A stretch of DNA of 10,046 nt from Candidatus Nealsonbacteria bacterium RIFCSPHIGHO2_02_FULL_43_13 (GTDB taxonomy: Bacteria > Patescibacteriota > Minisyncoccia > Minisyncoccales > MHMH01): assembly GCA_001819295.1 (NCBI GenBank), contig MHMD01000002.1:1-10046 (forward strand), given 5' to 3'. Under the pieces are notes generated by a model. That model was not told the DNA's origin. It saw only the letters and a list, made by a program, of their open reading frames with translations, and did not search any database. Shown here in pieces: positions 1 to 10,046 of the stretch (its first letter is position 1; each line of letters starts with the position of its first letter). The position numbers were made by a program, and so were the translations under genes.

Positions 1-977
1 TGCATCACAATAATATTAATTTGTTCTTTGTTGTAACCTAAAGCTTCAGCCGCCGCTTTAATTCTCGCCACATAACCGTAATGATCCGCTCCCCAAAAGA
101 AAATCAATTTCTGAAAGCCTCTGGCAAATTTGTTTTTCAAATAAGCGGCATCTGAAGCCAGATAGGTTTTTTCGCCGTCCTCTTTTATCAAAACCCTGTC
201 TTTATCGTCGCCAAATTGGGTGGATTTGAACCACAAGGCTCCCTCTGACTCGTAGGCTAGTTTTCTATTTTTTAAAAGATCCAAAACTTCAGTTACTTCT
301 TTTCTCTGATATAACGTTTTTTCAGAAAACCAAACGTCAAACTTAATTTTCATTTTCTTAATTGTCGGCTTGATCATTTCTTGCAAAATAATTTTGGCGG
401 CGGATTGGCCGATTTTCTCCGGATTGTTGCCCTTTATCTTCTTTTTTAATTCTTCAATATATCGCCCTTGATAAACGGCTTCTGCGTCGCCGATGACCGA
501 ATGGCCCAGTTTTTTAATCTGCTCCCCGGTATCGTTAATATAATACTCTCGTTTTGCTTGATAACCGGCCGCATTCAAAACATTGGTCAAGACATCGCCG
601 CAAAAACCGCCCCTCCCGTTGCCTAAGGTTAAAGGCCCGGTAGGGTTGGCCGAAATAAATTCCACATTCACTTTTTGGCCACGGCCGATTTTGAGTTCGC
701 CAAATGATTCTTTCTCTTTTAAAATTATGCCGACTTGTTTTTGCAAATAACCCTTGGCAAGAAAAAAATTAATAAAACCTGGGCCGGCCACTTCAACTTT
801 TTCGAATAAATCAGATTTCAAATTAACCGTTATTTCGCTTGCCGGCCTTTTCAGCTGCAACGCAATGTTCGTCGTATAGTCCCCAAACCCTTCTCCTTCG
901 GGATACGCCACCCGAATTTTTTCTGGAGACTCGCCAGTCGCTTTTTGAATCAGTTTTATTATTTCTTGCCTTATCAT
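1..977 (-). CDS. argS: Arginyl-tRNA synthetase (partial, C-terminal part outside the window)
   Basis: This class Ia synthetase charges tRNA-Arg in the cytoplasm. Translating the minus strand from the ATG at 977-975 gives about 325 residues with no stop before the window edge. The order fits ArgRS: an N-terminal Add-1-like region, then SANPTGPLTLGNGRGG around residues 110-125 (the HIGH signature region), the GDVL segment, and WGADHYGY near residue 295. The KMSKS loop and the anticodon-binding domain lie outside the window. The HIGH tetrapeptide reads TLGN (residues 117-120), so both usual histidines are replaced; the surrounding ANPTGPL context makes the identity secure. The start is supported by normal N-terminal sequence (MIRQEIIKLIQKATGE). 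I saw no strong Shine-Dalgarno sequence. Confidence 0.93.
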   Translation of the reverse strand, partial: MIRQEIIKLIQKATGESPEKIRVAYPEGEGFGDYTTNIALQLKRPASEITVNLKSDLFEKVEVAGPGFINFFLAKGYLQKQVGIILKEKESFGELKIGRGQKVNVEFISANPTGPLTLGNGRGGFCGDVLTNVLNAAGYQAKREYYINDTGEQIKKLGHSVIGDAEAVYQGRYIEELKKKIKGNNPEKIGQSAAKIILQEMIKPTIKKMKIKFDVWFSEKTLYQRKEVTEVLDLLKNRKLAYESEGALWFKSTQFGDDKDRVLIKEDGEKTYLASDAAYLKNKFARGFQKLIFFWGADHYGYVARIKAAAEALGYNKEQINIIVM

Positions 978-1027
978 TCTTTAAGTTTATCTTATTCCGC
1001 TTAAAAATTAAAGGTTGAAAATATTAT

Positions 1028-1052
1028 TTGATGGATATCCGATATCCATCAA
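1028..1052. repeat. Perfect inverted repeat upstream of argS
   Basis: Two 11-base arms (1028-1038 and 1042-1052) are exact reverse complements around a 3-base centre. It lies about 50 bases upstream of the argS start, between argS and the terminator of the next gene. No T-run follows on the minus strand, so a plain terminator is less likely than an operator or a stable leader hairpin. Function unknown. Confidence 0.55.
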
Positions 1053-1067
1053 TACAATTATCTTTTC

Positions 1068-1109
1068 AAAAAAACAAAATGCGGGAGAACTATAAAGAAG
1101 TTCTCCCGC
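1068..1109 (-). terminator. Rho-independent terminator of the 211-residue gene
   Basis: An 11-bp perfect stem (1081-1091 with 1099-1109, GC-rich, 7-base loop) is followed on the minus strand by a U-rich run (A, four T, G, seven T; 1068-1080). It sits 17 bases after the stop of the 1126-1761 gene and insulates it from argS. Confidence 0.9.
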
Positions 1110-1125
1110 TTATTGTGAGGTTATT

Positions 1126-1761
1126 TTATTTTTCTGCCGGGAAAAAAACCCGAGTGCCAGGAGAATGCCAGTCGCACTTTGGTCGCGGCCCAATCTCGTA
1201 GGCATCAACTGACCATCCTATTCCGCTTCCACAATAATGGATTCTTACCTCGCGCAAGACATTTTTCTTGTCCAGCGCGAAAAAGATATTAGGCTCAATG
1301 GGAGCAGTGAGAGGACCTTCGTAGCTCTCTCCCTGGCTCTCTACTAGGGCAAGTATTTGAGCTACTGGGGTTTCAACCTTCTCACCCACTTTAGTGAGTC
1401 CAGCGAGAATTGAATTACCATCTGACCTCTCCGAGAGATCGGCATAGCATAATTCGCTAAATTCAAAACTGCTCATTGGAGGCTCAATTTTTCCAGAAAA
1501 CATTTTGGAGAAATTGTACGAATCATGAATGTATCCCCTAAATCCAGGAACAACCTGAGGAATCTCGGGCACCACAAAGGGTGTATTTCCTCCCCGGCCC
1601 TGAATACTCACCCGAGGGAACCGGAAAAGACAACCAGTATTCTCTTTGATGCGTTGGAGTATTTCTAGTACTTTCTTTGGATCACGCTTGCCATCCCGTA
1701 CTAATTCTCCCACCCCCACCATCAGATCAAACATTCGAGCTTTGTCGGTTATCGCGACCAT
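1126..1761 (-). CDS. Unrecognised 211-residue protein with its own promoter and terminator
   Basis: I do not recognise this family. The ATG at 1761 is preceded by a strong Shine-Dalgarno sequence (AAGGAGGAG, about 6 bases away), and a consensus-like promoter and a terminator flank it, so it is a real, separately expressed gene. The N-terminal 45 residues look helical and charged (EILQRIKEN). The middle is rich in Pro, Gly and Ser, and the end has alternating aromatic and hydrophobic residues suggestive of beta strands (IHYCGSGIGWSVDAYEIG) before DWHSPG. There is no signal peptide or membrane segment, so it is probably cytoplasmic. The DWHSPG string near the end recalls DWHTPG just before the variable region of the DGR target in this window; whether this reflects homology is unclear. 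It stands between housekeeping translation genes. Confidence 0.8.
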   Translation of the reverse strand: MVAITDKARMFDLMVGVGELVRDGKRDPKKVLEILQRIKENTGCLFRFPRVSIQGRGGNTPFVVPEIPQVVPGFRGYIHDSYNFSKMFSGKIEPPMSSFEFSELCYADLSERSDGNSILAGLTKVGEKVETPVAQILALVESQGESYEGPLTAPIEPNIFFALDKKNVLREVRIHYCGSGIGWSVDAYEIGPRPKCDWHSPGTRVFFPAEK

Positions 1762-1819
1762 TTAGACTCCTCCTTCTTATCCGGTTTTCGCGGATAATAT
1801 AAAATTAAGGTACTTTTAT

Positions 1820-1847
1820 AGTATATCATATTTATAGAACTTGTCAA
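1820..1847 (-). promoter_or_regulatory. Promoter of the 211-residue gene
   Basis: On the minus strand there is a perfect -35 TTGACA (1842-1847), a 16-base spacer and -10 TATACT (1820-1825). Transcription would start near 1813, giving a leader of about 50 bases. That leader contains a small hairpin (ATCCG/CGGAT arms, 1779-1783 and 1791-1795) just before the Shine-Dalgarno sequence. Confidence 0.75.
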
Positions 1848-1869
1848 GAACCATATCTTCGTGATAAAT
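1841..1869 (+). promoter_or_regulatory. Putative divergent smpB promoter
   Basis: On the plus strand, TTGTCA (1841-1846) and an AT-rich -10-like GATAAAT (1863-1869) have 16-17-base spacing. The predicted start falls at about 1876, directly before the smpB ATG, which would make a leaderless mRNA and fit the absence of a Shine-Dalgarno sequence. The -35 shares its bases with the opposite promoter through the near-palindrome CTTGTCAAG (1840-1848). This is an inference. Confidence 0.4.
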
Positions 1870-1876
1870 TGAACCC

Positions 1877-2323
1877 ATGGAGGCGATCAAAAACAAAAGA
1901 GCTTATTTTGACTACGAATTCTTGGAAAAATTCGAGGCGGGCATGGTCTTGGCGGGCCAAGAGGTAAAATCAATAAAATCGGGGAAAATGTCACTCGCAG
2001 GCTCTTATGTTGTTTTAAAGAACGGCGAGATTTATCTGATTAACGCCAATATTGCGCCCTATCAGCTCAAAAACATTCCCAAAGATTATAATCCCACCCA
2101 AGCAAGAAAGCTCCTTTTGAGAAAAAAAGAAATCCAATACCTCTTCGGTAAAACTCAAGAAAGAGGCTTGACTTTAATACCATTGAGGGTATATAGTAAA
2201 AAAGGTAAAATAAAGCTAGAGTTTGCCGTCTCAAGAGGACGGAAAAAAGCTGATAAGAAAGAACGGATCAAAAAGCGCGAAGCGGACAAAGAAATAAGGC
2301 GAGAATTAAAAACTAGGGGGTGA
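1877..2323 (+). CDS. smpB: SsrA-binding protein SmpB
   Basis: SmpB is the partner of tmRNA in trans-translation, which rescues ribosomes stalled on mRNA lacking a stop codon. The 148 residues match the family length. NKRAYFDYEFLEKFEAGMVLAGQEVKSIKSGK (given here in part: EAGMVLAGQEVKSIKSGK) is the OB-fold signature, followed by the RKLLLRKKEI region and the basic C-terminal tail (SRGRKKADKKERIKKREADKE family pattern) that enters the mRNA channel. The ATG at 1877 fits the usual N-terminus. No Shine-Dalgarno sequence is visible. The TGA at 2321-2323 lies inside the acceptor stem of ssrA, which begins at 2316, so the two genes overlap by 8 bases. RNase P cutting at 2316 would remove the stop codon from this mRNA. 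Confidence 0.97.
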   Translation: MEAIKNKRAYFDYEFLEKFEAGMVLAGQEVKSIKSGKMSLAGSYVVLKNGEIYLINANIAPYQLKNIPKDYNPTQARKLLLRKKEIQYLFGKTQERGLTLIPLRVYSKKGKIKLEFAVSRGRKKADKKERIKKREADKEIRRELKTRG

Positions 2324-2673
2324 AAGGCTTCGACAGAGATCTTTTTTCAAAATCGGCAATTCCAGTATTCTGGAATCTGGTAAAACTTCCGGAAAACAGA
2401 GATAAGTGCTAACTTATTTCAAAAACCCGCTTACGCTTACGCGTAGGCCATCCGGCCTTAACTATTCTCGATAATAAGGATCGGGTGTTATAATCTCGAG
2501 ATAGGTAGAACCGCTTTTGCTTCAGGCAGTTCTCCGAAAAGTCAGAAGCTAGAAACTTCGGCTTATGCTTTTGCCTGTTTTATATCCGCTGTTTCGAAAA
2601 TTAAAACAGACTAAATTTGTAGAGAGATTTTGATAATATTTCTGGACGGGACTTCAATGTCCCCACCTCCACC
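2316..2673 (+). ncRNA. ssrA: Transfer-messenger RNA (tmRNA)
   Basis: The 5' end GGGGGTG (2316-2322) pairs with CACCTCC (2664-2670) as a 7-bp acceptor stem. The third pair is G·U (2318 with 2668), the alanine identity element. The conserved D-arm stretch GGCTTCGACAG follows the 5' strand. The T arm is GGGAC/GTCCC (2648-2652, 2659-2663) around TTCAAT, which is one base shorter than the usual 7-base loop. The discriminator A is at 2671; only CC of the CCA end is encoded, and a T follows. The tag reading frame is at 2408-2446. It lies directly between smpB, which it overlaps, and infC, whose TTG candidate start is the next base. Confidence 0.95.
2408..2446 (+). other. tmRNA tag reading frame, ANLFQKPAYAYA and stop
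   Basis: The resume codon GCT is preceded by ATAAGT, which resembles the usual ATAGTC context. Twelve codons give ANLFQKPAYAYA, then TAG. With the alanine carried by the tmRNA the full degradation tag would be AANLFQKPAYAYA. It ends in AYAYA rather than the common ALAA or VAA. A GGCC/GGCC hairpin (2446-2457) follows the stop, as helix 5 does in other tmRNAs. Confidence 0.85.
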
Positions 2674-3186
2674 TTGAACCCAAGAATAATCGCCAATACG
2701 CAAATAAGGGCTAAAAACGTGAGAGTTATCGACGAAACCGGAAAACAGCTGGGCGTTCTAGGTTTGGAAGAGGCTTTGCGCCTGGCTTACGAACGCAACC
2801 TGGATTTGATCCAGGTAACCGAAAAGGTTGACCCGCCGGTTTGCAAGATCATGGATTATGGCAAGTACTCTTACCAGGAAAAAAAGAAAACTCATACCGC
2901 CACAAAAAAGCAGAAAACCAGCGAGTTGAAGGGCATCAGGCTGACTTTCAATATTGGCCAGCACGACATGGAAACCAGAGCGAGGCAGGCGGAAAAATTC
3001 CTAAAAGAAGGCGATAAGGTAAGAATCGATATTGTCTTGCGGGGCAGGGAAAAAGCCCTGGGCAACTTTGCCCGAGAAAAAATCGGCAAGTTCCTTGAAG
3101 TCTTGCAGGGATTCGTCCTCTATAAAATCGAAAGAGAATTAAAAAAAGAGATGAGAGGCTTTTCCATGATTATCTCTAAACAATAG
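2674..3186 (+). CDS. infC: Translation initiation factor IF-3
   Basis: IF3 binds the 30S subunit, checks start codon and initiator tRNA pairing and prevents premature 50S joining. The protein has the N-domain motif (NTQIRAKNVRVIDETG), the PPVCKIMDYGKYSYQ linker region near residues 55-70 and the C-domain (RLTFNIGQHDMETRARQ, then KVRIDIVLRGRE). The start is uncertain. TTG at 2674 is the first base after the encoded tmRNA end; ATA (2686) or ATC (2689) are alternatives, and infC in other bacteria often uses a rare start codon for autoregulation. No Shine-Dalgarno sequence is visible. tRNase Z cutting behind the tmRNA discriminator would leave the infC mRNA almost leaderless. The infC-rpmI-rplT order is the standard one. 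Confidence 0.95.
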   Translation: MNPRIIANTQIRAKNVRVIDETGKQLGVLGLEEALRLAYERNLDLIQVTEKVDPPVCKIMDYGKYSYQEKKKTHTATKKQKTSELKGIRLTFNIGQHDMETRARQAEKFLKEGDKVRIDIVLRGREKALGNFAREKIGKFLEVLQGFVLYKIERELKKEMRGFSMIISKQ

Positions 3187-3204
3187 CGGGTGGCATGCCA
3201 CCCG
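3187..3204 (+). repeat. 18-bp perfect palindrome between infC and rpmI
   Basis: CGGGTGGCATGCCACCCG starts at the base after the infC stop. As RNA it folds into a 7-bp GC-rich stem with a CATG loop. No U-run follows, so it is probably an mRNA stability or processing hairpin. A leader element for bL20 feedback, known in this operon of other bacteria, is possible but not shown. Confidence 0.6.
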
Positions 3205-3242
3205 ATATATCGAGGAATATTATTCACTCGTTATAAGCATCC

Positions 3243-3431
3243 ATGAAAAAGAAAACTAGAAAATCTATCTTAAAACGCTTTAAAATTACCAAAAACGGTA
3301 AGATCCTGCGAAGACTTACCGGTTCTGATCATTACCGAGCGAAAAAATCTGGAAATAAAATCAGAAGGGGCAGAAAATGGATTACGGTTTCGGAGCAAGA
3401 AACAAAAAAAATTAAAAAACTATTAAGGTAA
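3243..3431 (+). CDS. rpmI: Large ribosomal subunit protein bL35
   Basis: This small, very basic 50S protein has 62 residues, close to the usual 64-66. MKKKTRKSILKRFKITKNGKI (here in part: KSILKRFKITKNGKI) matches the K(T/S)...KRFK.T..GK signature, followed by RAKKSGNKIRR. It sits between infC and rplT; its TAA ends one base before the rplT ATG, so translation is probably coupled. Confidence 0.95.
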   Translation: MKKKTRKSILKRFKITKNGKILRRLTGSDHYRAKKSGNKIRRGRKWITVSEQETKKIKKLLR

Positions 3432-3432
3432 C

Positions 3433-3777
3433 ATGGTTAGAATAAAAAAAGGAGTTACAGCCCATAAGCGCCGGAAACATCTGTTAAAACAGGCTAAAGG
3501 TTTTCGTTGGGGCAGAAAAAATAAGTTCCGGGCGGCTAAAGACGCCTTGCGTCATGCCTGGGAATACGCTTACCGGGATAGGAAAACAAAGAAAAGAGAA
3601 AGAAGAGCTCTCTGGCAAGTCCAGATCAATGCCGCTTGCCGGGAACAGGGGCTTAATTACAGCAAATTCGCTTTTGGCTTGAGAAAAAATAAAATCGAAC
3701 TTGATAGAAAGATACTGGCGCAACTTTGCCAAGATAATCCGGAAATCTTCAAAAAAATAATGGAAAAAGTAAAATAG
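3433..3777 (+). CDS. rplT: Large ribosomal subunit protein bL20
   Basis: bL20 binds 23S rRNA early in 50S assembly and represses its own operon in some bacteria. The 114 residues have the family's normal length. MVRIKKGVTAHKRRKHLLKQ covers the basic N-terminal extension, then AKGFRWGRKNKFRAAKDA, and RDRKTKKRERRALWQVQINAA in the globular domain (quoted parts below 21 residues: RDRKTKKRERRALW). The ATG is preceded by TAAGG within rpmI. It is the last gene of the plus-strand block. Confidence 0.96.
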   Translation: MVRIKKGVTAHKRRKHLLKQAKGFRWGRKNKFRAAKDALRHAWEYAYRDRKTKKRERRALWQVQINAACREQGLNYSKFAFGLRKNKIELDRKILAQLCQDNPEIFKKIMEKVK

Positions 3778-3778
3778 A

Positions 3779-3810
3779 AAAACCGCCTCTCCTAACAGGG
3801 AGGCGGTTTT
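3779..3810. terminator. Bidirectional terminator after rplT
   Basis: The arms 3779-3789 and 3800-3810 are exact complements (A4-CCGCCTC with GAGGCGG-T4), extended by one wobble and one GC pair. A T-run ends the plus side and the mirrored A-run gives a T-run on the minus side. It separates rplT from the convergent zinc ribbon gene, whose stop codon lies in its last bases. Confidence 0.9.
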
Positions 3811-4000
3811 AACGTTTGGATATTTTGCTTGGACATTTCGTCCAAATTTTTGAAAGAGTGATCTCTCCTTTTCCGATACTAGAAATAAGTTCTGTGATGG
3901 TAATGATTTTATCGCCTAAATGATTATTTCCGCAAGATGGACATTTGGGTTCATTTTTATCTGTGATAATACCACATCGAGAACATTGCTTATAGGCCAC
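3809..4000 (-). CDS. Small two-CxxC zinc ribbon protein
   Basis: The 63-residue protein has CSRC (Cys6, Cys9) and CPSC (Cys20, Cys23), enough for one zinc ribbon, followed by a short beta-rich stretch (GDKIITITELISSIGKGE). The GTG start has an excellent Shine-Dalgarno sequence (AGGAGGT, about 6 bases upstream), so the start is firm. Zinc ribbon, then a GxxIITI segment and SSIGK, distantly recalls archaeal Spt4 (RNA polymerase E''), which pairs with the NusG-like Spt5. It lacks a clear match to the Spt4 C-terminus, so this is only a possibility. Otherwise its role is unknown. Confidence 0.75.
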   Translation of the reverse strand: MAYKQCSRCGIITDKNEPKCPSCGNNHLGDKIITITELISSIGKGEITLSKIWTKCPSKISKR

Positions 4001-4050
4001 ATTCTACCTCCTACTTTCATTTAGGTTGTCAAAGATCGATTCTCCCCCAC

Positions 4051-4200
4051 TTAGGGATCGATATTTTTATTCGGAACGTTCCCGACGGCCCGCCAGGCTT
4101 TTGGGCGGCCGGCTAATTGAGCCACTTTTTTATAACTAAGGGTTTCCCCAGCCGGAATCGTCTTAACAAGTTTATAAATTTTTTGACAAAATAAAGTCAT
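4051..4200 (-). pseudogene. Truncated MGMT/Ogt-like DNA alkyltransferase remnant
   Basis: A 49-residue frame from the ATG at 4200-4198 reads CQKIYKLVKTIPAGETLSY, KKVAQLAGRPKAWRAVGN and VPNKNIDP, then TAA (4051-4053). This is the N-terminal DNA-binding helix-turn-helix part of the methylated-DNA-cysteine methyltransferase domain (IPxGetlSY..vA...G.pkAaRAVG..l.kN). The domain would continue into the PCHR active-site motif with its acceptor cysteine, but the frame stops just before it and no other frame downstream restores it. It overlaps the Nudix gene by 29 bases. I infer a decayed gene. A short DNA-binding-only protein is less likely. Confidence 0.75.
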
Positions 4201-4612
4201 GAGCCTTCTGGACGATTTTTTGAGCATTTTTAAAGGTCAGCTTTTTTAATGCTTCTTGATATGATAACCATTTAAAATCTAGGTGCTCAAAAGAAAGCTT
4301 TACCTCTTTTGTTTTAGTTTCGGCCAGTAAGTAAGAAACTGTTTTAGAAACATCTTCTCCTTTGTATAAAAAGGAATATTTTTCTATTTCTCTGAAGCCA
4401 TCGATAAATTCGAGATCTGCTATGCCCGTTTCTTCCTTAACCTCTCTCAAAACTGTGCCCATCTCTTTCTCTCCCCCCTCAATAGTCCCCTTGGCCAGGC
4501 CCCAATAAGTTTTCCCGACGAAACCGATAGCGCTGTAATTTAAAAGAAGGTAATAGATTTTACCTTTTTCTTTTAAAAAAATTACTGCGCCGGCTGATCT
4601 TCTCTGGAGCAT
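4172..4612 (-). CDS. Nudix hydrolase, Ap4A hydrolase-like
   Basis: The 146-residue protein carries a complete Nudix box (GX5EX7REUXEEXGU) at residues 42-64: GTIEGGE, then REVKEETGI, with the metal-binding glutamates present. The N-terminus RRSAGAVIFL and WGLAKGTIEGGE resemble the bis(5'-nucleosyl)-tetraphosphatase subgroup, which would hydrolyse dinucleoside polyphosphates. The substrate is inferred, not shown. ATG is one base after the GNAT stop, so the two are coupled in the polX operon. The 3' end overlaps the alkyltransferase remnant. Confidence 0.88.
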   Translation of the reverse strand: MLQRRSAGAVIFLKEKGKIYYLLLNYSAIGFVGKTYWGLAKGTIEGGEKEMGTVLREVKEETGIADLEFIDGFREIEKYSFLYKGEDVSKTVSYLLAETKTKEVKLSFEHLDFKWLSYQEALKKLTFKNAQKIVQKAHDFILSKNL

Positions 4613-4613
4613 A

Positions 4614-5114
4614 TTAAATATCCTTAATTAAAGAAACCTCATTGCAATCGGCGGGAAACCTGGAACAATTAATGCACTCCTGCCAAATTTTTTGAGGTAA
4701 TTTAGCTGTGCTAATTTCTTTGAAGCCAATCTTTTTAAAGAAAGCTACGTTTTTTTTAGTAGTGAGAGTGAATAACTTATCTATCTCCATCGCTTCGGCT
4801 TCATTAATACACGCTTTGACCAACTGCGTACCAATGCCCTTACCATGCTCTTTTTTCAAAACCGCCAACGACCTTACTTCGGCTAAAATAGATCCTTGGC
4901 GGCCAGGCCGGTATTCCTCGCCTAAAACATGCAAGGCGCAACAACCGATAACTTTCTTGCCTTTTTCGACAATAAAAAAATCTCTGATACTGCCGTAAAT
5001 TTCATAAAGAGGCCTGAAAAGCATGATGCCTTCTTCGGCATAAGCATCGATCGTCTTCTTTATTTTCACTGCGTCGCTAATTGTGGCTTTTCTGAAAATA
5101 ATTTTTGGTTTCAT
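4614..5114 (-). CDS. GNAT family N-acetyltransferase
   Basis: I chose the ATG at 5114-5112 (MKPKIIFRKATISDAV) because it forms an ATGA overlap with the polX stop, although the frame is open to an ATG at 5150. The 166-residue protein has the GNAT fold: acetyl-CoA motif A is VRSLAVLKKEHGKGIGTQL (residues 80-98) with the G-K-G-I-G pyrophosphate loop, then FFKKIGF near 125-131. The end has a cysteine cluster (Cys147, Cys150, Cys157) after LPQKIWQEC. That pattern and the LFTLTTK segment recall short N-acetylglutamate synthases of the ArgA type. No arginine biosynthesis genes are nearby, so the acceptor remains unknown. Confidence 0.88.
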   Translation of the reverse strand: MKPKIIFRKATISDAVKIKKTIDAYAEEGIMLFRPLYEIYGSIRDFFIVEKGKKVIGCCALHVLGEEYRPGRQGSILAEVRSLAVLKKEHGKGIGTQLVKACINEAEAMEIDKLFTLTTKKNVAFFKKIGFKEISTAKLPQKIWQECINCSRFPADCNEVSLIKDI

Positions 5115-6844
5115 TTTAAAAACGTTAACATTTTCTGCAAAGGATAGCAATTAATTACGTCTTTTTTCTCCGCCCACCCTCTTCTAGCTTGAGCAATGCC
5201 AAGCTCTATTAATTTTAATTGATTTTTATGATGAGCATCGGTATTAACGGCTATTTTAACCTGAAACTCTTTCGCTCTTTTAATATTTTGGTCGTTGAGA
5301 TCCAGCCTCTCGGGCGAGGCGTTCGCTTCTAAAATAGTGCCGGTTTCTTTGGCCGCCCTTAAAACCTTATCAAGATCTATCTGATATTCGTCTCTCTTTT
5401 TTAAAATCCTGCCCGTGGGATGGGAAATAATATCAACATTAGGATTTTTCATCGCCCGGATCAGGCGAGCGGTCATTTTGTCGCGAGGCATTTTAAAATT
5501 AGAGTGGATGCCTGCGATGACATAATCCAGCTTCTCTAGGGCCTCATCTTTGATATCTATTGAGCCGTCTTTCAAAATATTGGCTTCGCAACCCTTTAAA
5601 ATTTTGAATTTTGCTTGCCCGCCGTAGCCTTGGCGAAGGCGGGTGTTTAGTTTATCGATTTCTTTATTCCGCCGTTCTAATTGTTTTTCGTTTAAGCCGT
5701 GCTCAATCCTCAAAAACTTTGTATGATCCGCTATCCCCACATATTCATAACCCATTTCAATAGCGGCTTCGGCTATTTCTTTGATTGAGTTCGTGCCGCC
5801 GTCCCAGTCGGAATGAACGTGTAAGTCTCCTTTAATATCGCTAAAACCGACGATCTCCGGAAGTTTGTTTTTCAAAGCGGCCTCAACCTCCCCCCGATCT
5901 TCTCTCATCTCGGGCGGTATCCATGGCATGCCCAACGCTCTATAAACATCCTCCTCGCTTTCACCGGCTATCATTTTAGGCCCGCGAAATAAGCCGTATT
6001 CAGAAAGCTTCAGACCCTTTCCCATGGCAATAAGCCGTGTCGCGATGTTATGCTCTTTGGCTCCTGTAAAATACTGCAAGGCAGCGCCGTAAGAACGTTT
6101 CGGCACCACCCGAATATCCATATCAAATCCTTCCCTCATCCTGACCGAAGCTTTGGTCGCACCCTTGCCCCAGATTTTAATAACGCCGGGCATGGAAACG
6201 AAAGAGTCCATCACAAGCGATGGATGGCGCGCAATAACCAAAAAATCGACATCGCCGATAGTTTCTTTCATTCGTCTTAAAGAACCGCAATAATCCACCC
6301 GCTCCACGCCCCGGATCTTTTTCAGTTTTTCGTAAACCTCTTTGGTTTTAGGCAAAATCTCATTTAACAAAAATCTTCCCTTGCTTCTTTTGAGAAATTT
6401 GACGCCTTCGAGAATATTTTTTTCCGTCTTTTCGCCAAACCCGAACAGACTCGCTACTTTATGGGCCTTGGCCGCTTTCTCCAGGTCTTTTAAATTTTTA
6501 ACATTCAGCTTCTGATAGAGTATTTTGACGCGCCGCGGCCCCAAACCTTCAACCGAACTTAATTCTTGAAAATTAACGGGCGTTTTTCTTTTAAGATCGT
6601 TATAATATCTTATCTTGCCCGTATCGAGATACTCTGAAATATGCGCGGCAATGTTCTTGCCGACACCGGATAGTTCTTCGAGCGCTTTTTTACCGCCTTT
6701 TTGGTAGATTTCTTCGATATCGTTCTCTAAAGTTTCTATAGTTAAAGCCGCTCTCTCATAAGCGTAGGGCTTGAAAGGGACATTGTCCATCGCTAAAAAA
6801 TTAGCGATTTCATAAAAAATTTTAGCGAGTTCTTGATTCTTCAT
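5111..6844 (-). CDS. polX: Family X DNA polymerase with PHP phosphoesterase domain (PolX)
   Basis: Bacterial PolX fills short gaps in DNA repair and its PHP domain gives 3'-5' exonuclease or phosphoesterase activity. Over 577 residues I see helix-hairpin-helix motifs (LSGVGKNIA near 59-66, VEGLGPRRVK near 98-107), then the nucleotidyltransferase site GSLRR (187-191) with GDVD (Asp198, Asp200) and a third aspartate in DMD (243). The PHP domain follows: DLHVHSD (340-346), ADH (372-374), GCE (418-420), GIHS (445-448), SHP (474-476) and NTDAHH (534-539). All metal ligand motifs look intact. Residues 404-411 are an in-frame insert from a palindromic element. Its ATG overlaps the RT stop and its stop overlaps the GNAT start, both as ATGA. 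Confidence 0.95.
   Translation of the reverse strand: MKNQELAKIFYEIANFLAMDNVPFKPYAYERAALTIETLENDIEEIYQKGGKKALEELSGVGKNIAAHISEYLDTGKIRYYNDLKRKTPVNFQELSSVEGLGPRRVKILYQKLNVKNLKDLEKAAKAHKVASLFGFGEKTEKNILEGVKFLKRSKGRFLLNEILPKTKEVYEKLKKIRGVERVDYCGSLRRMKETIGDVDFLVIARHPSLVMDSFVSMPGVIKIWGKGATKASVRMREGFDMDIRVVPKRSYGAALQYFTGAKEHNIATRLIAMGKGLKLSEYGLFRGPKMIAGESEEDVYRALGMPWIPPEMREDRGEVEAALKNKLPEIVGFSDIKGDLHVHSDWDGGTNSIKEIAEAAIEMGYEYVGIADHTKFLRIEHGLNEKQLERRNKEIDKLNTRLRQGYGGQAKFKILKGCEANILKDGSIDIKDEALEKLDYVIAGIHSNFKMPRDKMTARLIRAMKNPNVDIISHPTGRILKKRDEYQIDLDKVLRAAKETGTILEANASPERLDLNDQNIKRAKEFQVKIAVNTDAHHKNQLKLIELGIAQARRGWAEKKDVINCYPLQKMLTFLK
5617..5643. repeat. Short palindromic element inserted in polX
   Basis: The GC-rich 27-base stretch forms nested hairpins (outer CCCGCC/GGCGGG, inner GCCTT/AAGGC). 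It encodes RLRQGYGGQA-like residues in PolX, between LNT and KFKILKGCE, where other PolX proteins have few or no residues. The GC content differs from the flanks. Similar inserts are, to my knowledge, seen in Parcubacteria genes, as palindromic elements in Rickettsia are; copy number in this genome could not be checked. Confidence 0.65.
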
Positions 6845-7809
6845 AATAATATCTTGCTTAAAAGTTTCTTTTTAAGTTTATACGAATTGCAATGTTTTAA
6901 AACTCCCAAATAAGATTGGATAGTTTGATCAAAAGATTTTGGGGAGACCTTGCCCCAACGCAATTCCTTAACTCTCCGTTTTATCTTCCCAAACATTCTT
7001 TTTTCAGTTTTGGTTCGCAAAATACGATGATACGGGAAACTTACATAACCCAAGAAGTCTACGCCTTGATGATACTTCCTTATTTCTATCTTATCGGAAT
7101 GCAGAGATAATTTCAATTTTTCCAAGAGGAATCTGCTTACTATGGAAATTAAGGTTTTTAAATAATCCCTGTTACCGTCTAAGATTATGAAATCGTCGCA
7201 ATAGCGAATATAGTATCTTATTTTTAGCTTATGCTTAATAAATTTGTCTAATTTATCAAGATAGATATTGGCAAAAAGCTGACTGGTGATATTACCGAGT
7301 GGCAATCCCTTGCCCGGCGAAGTTAGAAAGCTCTCAATAATTTCTTTAATTAACCATGCTGTATTTTTATCATTGATTTTTCTTTTGATAAAAAGGGTTA
7401 AAATATCGTGGTCAATTGAATCAAAAAACTTTTTGATATCCAATTTCAAAATATGGCAGTTTTGGGTATTATTTTTACCGACCTTTCTGGCAAACTTCTG
7501 CAAACGATTTACCGCTCTATGCGTTCCTTTATTCATGCGACAGGAATAGGAATCAAAAATAAAAGTAGGGTCGAAAATAGGGTATAAAATCCTGAAAACG
7601 TCATGATGCAAAACCCTATCTTCAGCGCAGGCTTTATGAATATGTCTTAATTTTGGGTCTTTGACGTAAAACGAGGTATAATTAGAATGCCGATAAATTC
7701 CGGCTTGCAATTCTTTGTGAAGTTGAAAAATATTATCTTCTAAATTATATTCAAATTCTTGGACGTCAAATTTATTTCCCTTGCCTCTTTTAAATTCCTG
7801 CCAAGCCAA
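6841..7809 (-). CDS. DGR-type reverse transcriptase
   Basis: This enzyme would copy the TR RNA into adenine-mutated cDNA that replaces the VR. Residues 121-129 hold LKLDIKKFF (motif A, Asp124), 168-177 GLPLGNITSQ (the [IVL]GxxxSQ motif that separates DGR enzymes from other reverse transcriptases) and 203-206 YCDD (active site, with Cys where Ala is usual), then VDFLGY at 250-255. The only standard in-frame start is TTG at 7809. However, the open frame upstream reads HKIFDEIISLENLFLAWQEF, which matches the conserved N-terminus of this family. The real start is therefore probably upstream: at an unusual ATT (7860), or at an ATG (7898-7896) that would be in frame if the C-run at 7862-7871 had 11 C. 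Its TGA overlaps the polX ATG. No maturase or X domain is present. Confidence 0.93.
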   Translation of the reverse strand: MAWQEFKRGKGNKFDVQEFEYNLEDNIFQLHKELQAGIYRHSNYTSFYVKDPKLRHIHKACAEDRVLHHDVFRILYPIFDPTFIFDSYSCRMNKGTHRAVNRLQKFARKVGKNNTQNCHILKLDIKKFFDSIDHDILTLFIKRKINDKNTAWLIKEIIESFLTSPGKGLPLGNITSQLFANIYLDKLDKFIKHKLKIRYYIRYCDDFIILDGNRDYLKTLISIVSRFLLEKLKLSLHSDKIEIRKYHQGVDFLGYVSFPYHRILRTKTEKRMFGKIKRRVKELRWGKVSPKSFDQTIQSYLGVLKHCNSYKLKKKLLSKILL

Positions 7810-7861
7810 AAATAAATTTTCGAGAGAAATTATCTCATCAAAAATTTTATGACTACTAATA

Positions 7862-7871
7862 CCCCCCCCCC
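7862..7871. repeat. Run of ten C at the RT/avd divergent start region
   Basis: The tract lies where the N-terminal frames of RT (minus) and Avd (plus) overlap. With ten C, both frames lack a standard start codon upstream of conserved residues. With eleven, ATG 7849 opens Avd (MTTNTPPPDSFNVPLVHK) and ATG 7898-7896 opens RT (MHQRNIEAVGGGG and on into ISSHKIFDEI). Either slipped-strand phase variation or a homopolymer error could explain this. Confidence 0.7.
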
Positions 7872-7889
7872 GACAGCTTCAATGTTCCT

Positions 7890-8210
7890 TTGGTGCATAA
7901 AATTGTGGAATTATACAAACTATTTCACAAATGCTTGATATTGTTTCCGAAACACGAAAAATATACACTGGGACAAAAAATTGAAAACACGATTTTGGAA
8001 ACGCTTGAGCTTGTTTTATCCGCAAACTACGCCAGTATATATAAAAAAGCGATTCTAAGAAAAGCGAATAATAAAATCGATCTTCTAAAATACTTAGTCA
8101 GAATTGCCCATGAAACCAACTCAATTAAAATTAAAGGTTATCTATCGCTTGAAGAAGTAATCATTAATATCGGCAGAATGATAGGCGGCTGGCAACGCTC
8201 TGTCAAATAA
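7890..8210 (+). CDS. avd: Avd-like four-helix bundle accessory protein of the DGR
   Basis: Avd forms a basic pentamer that binds the reverse transcriptase and the TR RNA and is needed for cDNA synthesis in known DGRs. The 106 residues show the family pattern: FPKHEKYTLGQKIENTILE near residues 19-37, ANYASIYKKAILRKAN, then IDLLKYLVRIAHE and NIGRMIGGWQRS at the end. Predicted secondary structure is almost all helix and the protein is basic. TTG at 7890 is the annotated start, but the upstream frame (DSFNVPL) also matches the family, so the true start is probably across the C-run. It runs opposite to the RT and the target gene, which is unusual. It ends 11 bases before a hairpin. Confidence 0.85.
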   Translation: MVHKIVELYKLFHKCLILFPKHEKYTLGQKIENTILETLELVLSANYASIYKKAILRKANNKIDLLKYLVRIAHETNSIKIKGYLSLEEVIINIGRMIGGWQRSVK

Positions 8211-8221
8211 ATTTTAAATAT

Positions 8222-8248
8222 AGAAACCCCGCTTTTCGCGGGGTTTCT
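8222..8248. terminator. Perfect hairpin between avd and the template repeat
   Basis: AGAAACCCCGC (8222-8232) and its exact complement (8238-8248) make an 11-bp stem with a 5-base loop. T-rich sequence on either side is short, so it can act as a modest bidirectional terminator for avd and for the TR transcript. It lies 12 bases past the end of the TR, as another hairpin lies past the VR. Confidence 0.7.
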
Positions 8249-8260
8249 GGCATTATATTG

Positions 8261-8387
8261 AGCACTACCCAGAAACAGCAAGCCGGAAGAATAGTTGTCG
8301 TTCGCATTACCCAGATTGCCCCTGCCGTCAAAGTTGAGCCGGTCATCATTTGCCTTCAGATAAAGCGAGTCGTCCGGAGACTGCCAA
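8261..8387 (-). repeat. DGR template repeat (TR)
   Basis: This noncoding repeat aligns without gaps to the VR at an offset of 362 bases. In 127 positions there are 17 mismatches. Fourteen are at T on the plus strand, which is A in the transcribed (minus) direction: ten A to G, two A to C and two A to T. The three others are at 8267, 8333 and 8354. It contains asparagine (AAT/AAC) codons in register with diversified residues, the usual TR design. The 3' end (8261-8291) has one mismatch (8267), as expected for IMH* against IMH. Similarity past 8387 is weak. Confidence 0.95.
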
Positions 8388-8394
8388 TGATTTG

Positions 8395-8460
8395 TTAATT
8401 CTCTTCCCTATCCACCAGAAGAGCATAAAACTGCGCTTCTTGAATTTTATCCGATCCCAT
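8395..8460 (-). other. TR leader region with a 21-codon open frame
   Basis: Between the VR hairpin and the TR (8388-8574) I found no full gene and no confident promoter. On the minus strand a 21-residue frame starts at ATG 8460 and ends at 8395, just before the TR. There is no Shine-Dalgarno sequence. The sequence just before its ATG (GTCTAAATGG) is the same as before the 1126-1761 gene. It may be leader RNA required for cDNA priming or the remnant of a former target gene. Whether it is translated is unknown. Confidence 0.25.
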
Positions 8461-8574
8461 TTAGACCCTAAGAACTAACAAGGAGTGCTGAAAATATATT
8501 CGGCGACCTTGATTTGTCTTAAACCAAGATACATTAGCCTACATTATCAGAATAATAAAAATCAGAGAAAATGA

Positions 8575-8604
8575 AAAGGGGCACAATAATAGTTGTGCCC
8601 CTTT
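8575..8604 (-). terminator. Perfect hairpin after the VR-containing target gene
   Basis: The arms 8575-8586 and 8593-8604 are exact 12-base complements with a 6-base loop. On the minus strand the stem ends in a T-run (TTTTCATTTTC), typical of rho-independent termination. It begins 18 bases after the end of the VR. In known DGRs a hairpin or cruciform just downstream of the VR also promotes retrohoming, so this one may do both. Confidence 0.8.
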
Positions 8605-8619
8605 GCAAAGAACAAAAAA

Positions 8620-9540
8620 TCAAGCACTCCCCAGAAACAGCAAGCCGGAAGAACAGCGGCCGCTCGCATAACCCAGATCGCCCCTGCCGCCAAAACCGAG
8701 CCGGTCATCATCGGCATCCAGATAAAGCGAGTCGACCGGAGACTGCCAAGATAATGCCGATAAGTCATATCCTGGTGTATGCCAATCTCTGGCGAGAACA
8801 TCGGGATACATCGCCATTGCCGAGAGGGCATCAAACCCACCAGATAAAATCAGTGATTCCGGTAGAACGGCTATTTGTCCCCGACTGGCGAACACAGAAA
8901 AACCTTGAAGCGGATTCGGGAAATAGATGGCGACAACGAAAGCTTGGGCCATTCTTTCAATCAGCTTCTCGTGCCTGGTGCCTGAAACAATAGTGACTTT
9001 CCCAGCGAGATCGCCCGCCCGGTAGTTGTAAAAGCTTCTGTTAGGAAATTCCTTCTTGTAGCCTAACTCTATCGCCGGAAGAAAAACCTCTTCCAGCGTT
9101 TCACCGTAATCGGTAAAATTTTCCAACTTTGGTAGAATTATTGGGAGATAAACCCCGTTGAGCAAATTGGCGAGACCCTTGTTTGTTCTAATCAAACTAA
9201 TCAGCCCTTCGCTTCTGGCTTCGAATATCGCCGATGACATTGTTGGGTTTACGAGAGAGAACACTTCCTGAAACCGGTCAAACCGTTCCGTATATTTAAG
9301 TTTTGGCTGGACTAAATGAAAATCCTTGCTTGCGTCGCAAACTGCGGCCGTTAAGCTCTTGACTGGAATACACCTACCATTTTTATCGACGAGCTTAAGA
9401 ATTCTCTTTACAAGCTCAACTTCAAGCTCATCTCGCAAAAGCGCCTCCAGTTTTTCCAAGTCGCCACTAGAAACTTTATTCAAGATAGCGGCGATTTGAC
9501 CCACCGTGAACCCTTGCATGATTTCCAAAGAACTACCCAT
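8620..9540 (-). CDS. DGR target protein with C-terminal variable region
   Basis: The 306-residue protein has a strong Shine-Dalgarno sequence (AAGGAG, about 6 bases upstream of ATG) and its own promoter. I do not recognise the N-terminal part (about 1-250). It is mostly helical and charged up to about residue 100 and more beta-like later. Residues 265-306 (WQSP to LLFLGSA) are encoded by the VR. Eleven residues differ from the TR-encoded version: 269, 275, 277, 282, 284, 288, 291, 293-296. The layout of a conserved scaffold with exposed variable residues ending in SSGLLFLG suits a C-type-lectin-like ligand-binding fold, but this is inferred. No signal peptide or membrane segment is present, so a cytoplasmic role or unconventional export must be considered. 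Confidence 0.88.
   Translation of the reverse strand: MGSSLEIMQGFTVGQIAAILNKVSSGDLEKLEALLRDELEVELVKRILKLVDKNGRCIPVKSLTAAVCDASKDFHLVQPKLKYTERFDRFQEVFSLVNPTMSSAIFEARSEGLISLIRTNKGLANLLNGVYLPIILPKLENFTDYGETLEEVFLPAIELGYKKEFPNRSFYNYRAGDLAGKVTIVSGTRHEKLIERMAQAFVVAIYFPNPLQGFSVFASRGQIAVLPESLILSGGFDALSAMAMYPDVLARDWHTPGYDLSALSWQSPVDSLYLDADDDRLGFGGRGDLGYASGRCSSGLLFLGSA
8623..8749 (-). repeat. DGR variable repeat (VR)
   Basis: It occupies the last 42 codons of the target gene and ends right before its TGA (8620-8622). It matches the TR at 110 of 127 positions. Eleven codons give different amino acids; the change at 8713 is silent. The 3' end is adenine-poor in the coding direction and nearly identical to the TR, which fits the initiation-of-mutagenic-homing site. 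One synonymous difference (8629 against 8267) falls in it. Confidence 0.95.
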
Positions 9541-9628
9541 TTTACTCTCCTTATTTCAGACTTTTTCTCGTCCGAAACCTTGGCCTCTTGGCTCGGCCAT
9601 TGCCATCTTCTCATTTGGAAGACATTTA

Positions 9629-9657
9629 ATCTTAGCACATTAATTTTAAAATGTCAA
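9629..9657 (-). promoter_or_regulatory. Promoter of the DGR target gene
   Basis: On the minus strand a perfect -35 TTGACA (9652-9657), a 17-base spacer and -10 TAAGAT (9629-9634) are present. Transcription would begin near 9622 and give a leader of about 80 bases. The -35 lies only 2 bases past the stop of the MFS gene. Confidence 0.75.
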
Positions 9658-9659
9658 TT

Positions 9660-10046
9660 CTAAAAAGGTTTTTCCGACGGAGGCACCCGAGGTTTGAAAT
9701 GGTCTCTGTTAAAAAGCCTGGGACGAATGAGCAATAAAAGAGAGGAAGCGGCGAGCCCAAAGATGCTGACTAAAACGAAAACGAGCTTAAAGCTGATCAG
9801 CGAGGCTAAAATACCGCCGAAAGCTCCGGCAATCCCCGCGGCAAACCCGAGTCCGGTGCTTTCTAAGCTCCAGGAAAAGGCCTCTCGCCCCTTATCGATG
9901 TGCCTGGTGAATATGCCCGACCAGGTGGGGACGACGCAAGCCATGGCCAGCCCCCGGATAAATTCCAGAATAAATATGTGCCAGGGCTGCGATGAGAAAA
10001 TATAACCCAACGGGATAAGATTAGCCGCGTACATACCGACGATTAA
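9660..10046 (-). CDS. MFS transporter, C-terminal end only (partial)
   Basis: The frame stays open to the window edge, so the N-terminal part is missing. The visible 128 residues contain several hydrophobic segments (about IPLGYIFSS, IFILEFIRGLAMACVVPTW, then GFAAGIAGAFGGILASLIS and LVFVLVSIFGLAASSLLLLI) and the FTRHIDKGREAFSWSLESTGL loop. This is the layout of the middle of a major facilitator protein, with a drug-efflux-like R.GlA..vP pattern; the substrate cannot be told. The protein ends in a short polar tail soon after a membrane segment, so it may be a shorter version of the family or have few helices after this point. Confidence 0.75.
   Translation of the reverse strand, partial: LIVGMYAANLIPLGYIFSSQPWHIFILEFIRGLAMACVVPTWSGIFTRHIDKGREAFSWSLESTGLGFAAGIAGAFGGILASLISFKLVFVLVSIFGLAASSLLLLIRPRLFNRDHFKPRVPPSEKPF

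Follow-up and report, generated by a model that had tools for sequence, protein, structure and literature searches.

Diversity-generating retroelements (DGRs) are strong targeted mutators, and how cells avoid constant mutagenesis by them is an open question. The DGR of the Bordetella phage BPP-1 comprises mtd, avd, a template repeat (TR) and brt, and in the reconstituted BPP-1 DGR the Avd protein is required for retrohoming. A quite different source of variation is found in contingency loci, where a homopolymer lies 3' of the start codon, its lengths fall into classes modulo 3, and mixed on and off states occur. The DGRs of Patescibacteria are said to have been treated by Paul et al. in 2017. 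A Patescibacteria-restricted DGR clade (clade 2) with below-average activity has been described by Roux et al. 2021 (PMC8144416), and that article leaves undecided whether the slower change of cellular targets reflects tighter control of the reverse transcriptase (RT) or stronger selection.

The stretch of DNA analysed here, referred to as the window, spans 10,046 nt of Candidatus Nealsonbacteria bacterium RIFCSPHIGHO2_02_FULL_43_13 (GCA_001819295.1, contig MHMD01000002.1, positions 1-10,046), in which an earlier note had claimed a complete DGR. The element is indeed a diversity-generating retroelement, and a chromosomal one. The TR (8261-8387, minus strand) and the variable repeat (VR; 8623-8749, minus), with which the target gene ends at its 3' side, can be aligned gap-free over 127 nt and show 17 mismatches, 14 of which fall at TR adenines, as had been claimed; since adenines make up 26 of the 127 bases, the excess is marked (hypergeometric p=3.1e-9). 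From TR to VR the changes are A>G (10), A>T (2) and A>C (2), plus one each of G>T, C>T and T>G, and the expected eleven differing target residues were recovered among the 42 encoded by the two stretches. The RT (6841-7809, minus, as listed from a TTG, and also placed by alignment) matches PF00078 (78.5 bits in a profile search) and phrog_1423, and carries the sequence GLPLGNITSQ, which we take to be the motif marking DGR-kind RTs. Among solved RT structures, the best profile match is 8ub7, presumably the BPP-1 DGR RT (E 1.5e-53; next 2.5e-30), and the group II intron model TIGR04416 gave 155.6 bits, below its cut-off of 300. The family check by HMM suggested in the earlier note thus places the RT, by motif and profiles, within the DGR kind. 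The neighbouring Avd-like protein was also borne out: its ORF (7890-8210, plus) matches PF22296 (bAvd; 66.6 bits, cut-off 40) and phrog_3206, annotated as "Avd protein of DGR", and scores slightly below the cut-off with NF033474 (78.4 bits against 80).

The target gene is likewise where it had been indicated, as a minus-strand ORF of 306 residues (8620-9540). Its product had no match in Pfam, NCBIfam or PHROG, and fold searches with a structure model of high confidence (pLDDT 92.6) did not settle on a fold. The nearest target homologue, P0150, shows no difference over 268 residues and departs from the window target solely in the VR, which together with the adenine-biased mismatches supports past adenine-directed mutagenesis in this lineage, although one change and a 2-residue insertion in the P0150 VR do not fit the TR of the window (a single relative, compared as protein sequence). 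Just 3' of the VR, at 18 nt, a minus-strand hairpin with a 12-bp stem and 6-nt loop (8575-8604; fold z -6.15) stands where DGRs have their target-site hairpin and adds a further DGR feature to the RT, Avd and the adenine-directed repeats. Another strong hairpin, with an 11-bp stem (8222-8248, minus; fold z -5.88), lies between TR and avd, whose 3' ends converge there, and is likely a terminator common to both. The only match in an Rfam search was a tmRNA.

The avd gene lies on the strand opposite to RT, TR, VR and target, so that RT and avd point away from each other and overlap at their 5' ends. At this junction lies a homopolymer (C10 on the plus strand, G10 on the minus strand; 7862-7871) that both reading frames run through and that is proposed here as a phase-variation tract; the earlier note was silent on the opposite-strand avd and on this run, which shifts both ATG frames where the genes meet. 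The tract at the divergent starts, missed by that note, is the most unusual feature of the DGR. The open frame of the RT runs on upstream through the conserved ISLENLF motif up to the tract without an ATG. The upstream RT ATG (7896-7898, minus), located 27 nt before the tract, is off-frame with respect to the RT body at a tract length of 10 and gives a 22-residue ORF (7898 to 7830). The avd ATG (7849-7851, plus), which on the other strand reads as an RT His codon (CAT), is at this length off-frame with respect to the avd body (open 3' of the tract, 7872-8210, plus) and gives a 29-residue ORF (7849-7938). Possible avd starts beyond the tract are TTG 7890, from which the ORF listing begins the gene, and GTG 7893. 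Because the ATG-initiated ORFs end so early at length 10, RT and avd would both be off in the window. The element is therefore complete only as an inventory of parts, since as assembled no ATG stands in frame with the RT body or with the avd body. Judged from the sequence, it is quite likely that the RT and avd mutator genes are phase-variable through slipped-strand change of the C/G tract, and small changes in tract length would probably turn the entire mutator on or off.

Such runs are rare outside this position. In the 524-kb genome no C/G run but the C10 tract reaches 9 bases; according to pattern searches for the genomic background, 100 genomes (this one included) hold 69 runs of at least that length, nine of them at a DGR RT. 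For a wider survey, 92 regions and subsequently at least 25 new automatic loci and at least 60 further regions were gathered, an RT profile search of genome contigs having provided 6 loci only; RT hits that began beyond profile position 10 were dropped before counting, as were entries repeating the first 80 residues of another, and the 182 sources resulted in 178 loci (L035 being omitted as a duplicate of L187). As the better-scoring matches were chosen, the prevalence figures hold for better-scoring matches. G/C runs of 8 or more numbered 114 in 32,130 junction bases versus 7 in the other ~1.02 Mb of fetched contigs. A junction run of 8 to 13 was present in 103 of 139 loci with divergent avd, in none of 18 with avd on the same strand, in 11 of 21 without detected avd and in 21 of 39 from other classes (19 of the 26 new automatic loci, plus 20 regions), and in one of 80 IMG/VR loci used as a control set (the best 80 of 585, one of them partial). 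An adenine-biased TR/VR pair accompanied 88 of the 103 divergent tract loci, the repeats being sought by contig, so that a contig with two RTs was counted for both. Tracts within the RT gene itself seem to have arisen separately in a same-strand-avd group (L139, L146, L161) and in the divergent L138. Once the tract was found to be conserved, the reading of the locus as an ordinary DGR and nothing more was rejected as incomplete.

The frames on both sides of the tract were then compared across loci. From the 103 divergent tract loci, 2 were unscorable for avd; among the remaining 101, five have their own ATG between tract and body and 96 have none in frame. In 95 of these 96 the ATG frame entering the tract fits the avd body at some length, the exception having no start in any phase; as assembled, 25 are in frame (tract length being uncertain in one of them because masked bases adjoin the tract) and 70 are not. 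In tractless controls start and body were in frame in 31 of 36 loci (Fisher p=4.8e-10 versus 25/95). Five of these 36 tractless divergent loci also have no in-frame avd ATG and four no in-frame RT ATG; the frame scoring therefore has an error floor. The avd ATG mostly keeps to one place, on the strand opposite an RT His codon that lies 39 or 42 nt ahead of the RT profile start. Counting only loci with exactly one avd phase, it occupies that place in 17 of 19 loci that are on and in 56 of 68 that are off; of the 36 tractless loci 31 were used, and 18 of these have it there. Where the RT depends on the tract (n=38), 13 loci are on, 20 off and 5 without a start in any phase. The two genes are coupled: in all 24 loci in which the RT has no ATG of its own and both genes could be scored, a length that opens avd also opens the RT, as is the case in 15 of 15 where each gene has exactly one phase.

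One could argue, alternatively, that the tract sets dosage by programmed slippage, RNA polymerase or ribosome slipping so that every length yields some full-length RT and Avd. Slippage of this kind would tolerate the population of all three phases, and single-phase avd loci are in fact split 39/19/29 over -1/0/+1 (7/5/4 in other classes), the in-frame share of 19/87, somewhat below one third (chi-square p=0.03), counting against switching. That 111 of the 114 tract loci keep the RT body in a single open frame (33 of 36 among tractless divergent loci) is also compatible with this view. Nevertheless, slippage is unneeded in the 25 loci that are in frame, and 36 of the 139 divergent loci manage without a tract. 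Furthermore, the run consists of G/C, as do runs subject to replication slippage in contingency genes, whereas polymerase slips preferentially on A/T. This explanation is for these reasons considered unlikely, if still the strongest competitor of switching by replication slippage. A possible GTG, TTG or early-body ATG start lies beyond the tract in 51 of 70 off avd loci and in 16 of 25 on loci, and the former figure, a weak point of the switching model, means that a nearly full Avd might arise regardless of frame; for the RT, a GTG or TTG precedes the conserved motif in 4 of 20 off loci.

Across loci, tract length ranges from 8 to 13. It differs in six of seven similar pairs (at least 80%) with a tract in both members, five of the seven being two loci of one genome. 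The window and its nearest relative, L107, are sisters in the RT tree (support 0.925; 167 of the 178 loci were kept, split or short RTs being left out, and several deep nodes have support of 0.16 to 0.55), and with 9 C L107 has both genes on, whereas with 10 C the window has both off. The RT of P0001 equals that of the window over the first 301 residues from AWQEF, with 6 differences near the C-terminus, and reads SGGGGISSH, which at the protein level implies 12 G versus 10 in the window; at 12 G it would open from a TTG, not from an ATG. The junction presents several features of a phase-variable contingency locus, namely a slip-prone repeat within the reading frames, lengths that differ among close relatives, and both on and off frames. 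It could be objected that homopolymers are error-prone and that the lengths are known from assemblies alone, in which case the true tracts would all be in frame and one-base consensus errors would mimic the off state. That is quite improbable, given that such errors would have to affect 70 of 95 loci, could not produce a tract that recurs at a single position in 124 loci while the remaining ~1.02 Mb has 7 such runs, and do not account for the different length implied by the near-identical RT of P0001. Even less credible is decay, in which the frameshift would be the first step in the loss of a pseudogene pair: the missing in-frame ATGs of RT and avd in the window agree with it, but the RT remains open in nearly all tract loci, in most off loci the avd start has stayed at one RT codon, the closest homologue of the target is changed in the VR alone, and both states occur among sister loci. 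Finally, although Avd N-termini with PPP and RT N-termini with GGG or GGGG occur in several relatives, there is hardly any chance that the run is kept for these residues with its frame irrelevant, as it is pure over 8-13 bases where mixed Pro or Gly codons would serve, is read in another phase in out-of-frame loci, and is followed by an RT ATG in 73 of 103 divergent tract loci.

In the favoured model, that of slipped-strand phase variation, RT and avd are transcribed apart, with the tract inside both frames, 3' of both starts and 5' of both conserved bodies. Slippage at replication, in a lineage where no MutS was detected, would lengthen or shorten the tract; in the window arrangement one length class in three opens RT and avd together. 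MutS_V was matched in none of 20 chosen genomes (19 with a tract, plus G172; the control matched in 11 of 14), and as the set is almost entirely tract-bearing, this absence may simply be phylum-wide. In most tract-bearing relatives the RT has an ATG of its own beyond the tract and only avd would be switched, which should suffice given the requirement of Avd for retrohoming in the BPP-1 system. The tract would slip within a clone, mutagenic activity would be lost in the off state and regained on reversal, to the advantage of the lineage, and the adenine-biased TR/VR differences would record earlier on periods. It is likely that this amounts to a widespread two-tier diversification, ancestral to a large patescibacterial DGR clade (the RT-internal tracts being separate), in which a shared homopolymer randomly turns the targeted mutator on in a minority of cells, which diversify one recognition protein and lock the result upon slipping back.

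If true, an off switch of this heritable and random sort, built into the mutator, would directly explain for Patescibacteria how constant mutagenesis is avoided. Existing metagenomes allow the model to be tested, tract and VR being no more than about 0.9 kb apart. On the practical side, in many such elements gene calling will place the starts of RT and avd wrongly or miss the genes. Phase variation acting on the mutator itself would also be without earlier report in the literature searched: no phase-variable or frame-switched DGR was reported among the matches listed, which covered few subscription papers and included, as partial texts, PMC8144416, PMC10053308, PMC12875486, PMC12135933 (which mentions "phase-variable" once) and PMC9948471.

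Compared with the known systems, the element shares with the BPP-1 DGR the RT, Avd, the adenine-directed TR/VR differences and a hairpin after the VR, the BPP-1 hairpin differing in its loop and distance from the VR. Unlike it, the window element is chromosomal and cellular rather than phage-borne, its avd is divergent on the opposite strand with 5' ends overlapping the RT, and both frames run through a C/G tract. The patescibacterial DGRs of clade 2 (PMC8144416) resemble it in phylum, in being cellular and in a target without recognisable domain; they differ in that no tract or switching is described in the part of that article available, whose main text does not contain the word "Avd". Poly-G/C phase variation in Neisseria and Campylobacter is the topic of PMC5084427 and PMC6321876. 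With such contingency loci the element has in common a C/G homopolymer after the start codon, length classes modulo 3 and mixed on and off states, but what would be switched here is a targeted mutator rather than a surface structure, and a single tract serves two divergent genes.

The window is part of a 28-kb contig from a 524-kb genome assembled in 32 contigs, and its setting is ordinary chromosome, with genes that we take from their ORF translations to be argS, smpB, infC, rpmI and rplT, a tmRNA (2316-2674), and polX and an MFS gene recognized by domain matches. An ORF of 211 residues (1126-1761) was without a Pfam or NCBIfam match. On the minus strand the elements follow one another in the order target (8620-9540), VR (8623-8749), hairpin, TR (8261-8387), hairpin, avd (body 7872-8210, on the opposite strand) and RT (6841-7809); the named homologues of RT, avd and target belong mostly to Patescibacteria, Paceibacterota or Parcubacteria. 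Upstream of the TR, positions 8497-8520 nearly match a 24-nt stretch of another locus (L002:1501-1524, contig C18; E 2.6e-4), which in one frame translates as YGDLDLSLISELPVGRKK, presumably RecG-like.

The earlier note's description of a diversity-generating retroelement (DGR) was borne out. TR and VR are mismatched at 17 of 127 sites, 14 of which are TR adenines (p=3.1e-9), changing 11 residues; TR adenines occupy codon positions 1, 2 and 3 in 9, 16 and 1 cases, and mutations therefore alter residues. Over its first 268 residues the nearest target homologue (P0150) has the same sequence as the window target; it then diverges through the VR and shares the end CSSGLLFLGSA, a pattern which, at the protein level, is what a DGR would leave. 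Two features of its VR do not fit the window's TR, namely an insertion of two residues and a change at a TR codon devoid of adenine, so the P0150 strain is likely to have a different TR.

RT and avd are divergent, and their ATGs (7898-7896 and 7849-7851, respectively) each lie across a C10 tract (7862-7871; G10 on the RT strand) from their own gene body, so that the two 5' ends overlap. At length 10 both ATG frames are out of register with the bodies, the ORFs ending at 29 (avd) and 22 (RT) residues, while a tract one base longer, modulo 3, would open RT and avd together in one common length class. This tract is the only C/G run of at least 9 in its own genome.

To describe its distribution, 178 distinct RT loci were scored after removal of duplicates among the window, 92 order regions, 85 class regions and 4 named contigs; they were drawn from the better-scoring RT matches, to which the prevalence applies. 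A tract, defined as 8-13 consecutive G residues on the RT strand at most 170 nt before the RT profile, was present in 103 of 139 loci with divergent avd and in 11 of 21 where avd was undetected, and was absent from that position in all 18 loci with same-strand avd. Other classes of the phylum had it in 21 of 39 loci, and IMG/VR DGR loci (the best 80 of 585, one partial) in 1 of 80. G/C runs of at least 8 numbered 114 in 32,130 junction bases versus 7 in the other ~1.02 Mb of order and class contigs and window. Across 100 genomes, its own included, 9 of 69 runs of at least 9 lay at DGR RTs, so some relatives carry such runs elsewhere too. One locus (L037) has a second G run, 11 long (9088-9098), some 3 kb away from its DGR RT and ahead of another ORF, flanked by -35-like and -10-like boxes recognized by eye; it looks like a phase-variable promoter. 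In an RT tree of 167 of the 178 loci, same-strand-avd RTs were separate (support 0.973) and a 137-locus clade (support 0.968) included all 110 placed tract loci; divergent-avd loci outside this clade were without tract, and several deep nodes were weak.

No ATG occurred from tract to avd body in 96 of 101 scorable divergent-avd tract loci, and in 95 of these some ATG frame matched the body at one or more tract lengths. As assembled, 25 of the 95 fitted and 70 did not, against 31 of 36 in frame in the tractless control (Fisher p=4.8e-10), where RT was in frame in 32 of 36; in single-phase avd loci the shift needed was -1, 0 or +1 in 39, 19 and 29 cases. The avd ATG is positionally homologous: 39 or 42 nt ahead of the profile start it forms the complement of an RT His codon, in 17 of 19 on loci, 56 of 68 off loci and 18 of 31 loci without the tract. 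Chance ATGs would be an unlikely explanation: among loci whose RT lacks its own ATG, a length opening avd also opens RT in all 24 for which both genes could be scored (15 of 15 with a single phase for each gene), a coupling expected of real starts because both genes span one tract. Of the 103 divergent tract loci, 73 have an RT with its own ATG beyond the tract, and in these switching would affect avd only; in the remainder, window included, mostly both genes are tract-dependent. The 38 RTs lacking their own ATG comprised 13 on, 20 off and 5 startless in every phase. One genome (G200) had RT loci with tracts of 9, 10, 10, 10 and 11, in a mixture of on and off states; this genome carries at least 6 DGR-type RTs (L129, L131, L132, L133, L135, L154), 5 with junction tracts of 9-11 and 4 without detected avd.

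Tract loci are intact and not decaying, with a single open RT frame in 111 of 114, versus 33 of 36 tractless divergent loci, and A-biased TR/VR pairs accompany 88 of the 103 tract loci with divergent avd. Tract lengths were unequal in 6 of 7 similar tract-bearing pairs, five of the seven being two loci of one genome. An RT homologue (P0001) whose only differences from the window RT body are at 6 C-terminal residues implies, from its protein sequence, 12 G versus the window's 10. Missing mismatch repair would favour slippage; MutS_V had no match in 20 of 20 genomes, 19 with tract, the control being found in 11 of 14. G runs of 8-10 also occur within the RT gene itself (L138, L139, L146, L161), breaking it into two frames in L138 and L161; in L146 the profile match stops at the run and in L139 the frame continues across. 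All of these but L138 come from the same-strand-avd group. The runs are probably separately evolved switches, the same device with a separate origin.

In the proposed mechanism, slipped-strand changes of tract length would turn RT and Avd on or off. PMC12875486 gives Avd as essential in the reconstituted BPP-1 element, so switching avd by itself should suffice. The DGR is confirmed, and what is new is a conserved, probable homopolymer switch common to both mutator genes. Most assembled tract loci are off. PMC8144416 reports lower than average activity for clade 2 DGRs, its authors offering purifying selection also as a cause; the off majority would be in line with that low activity if the window RT falls in this clade.
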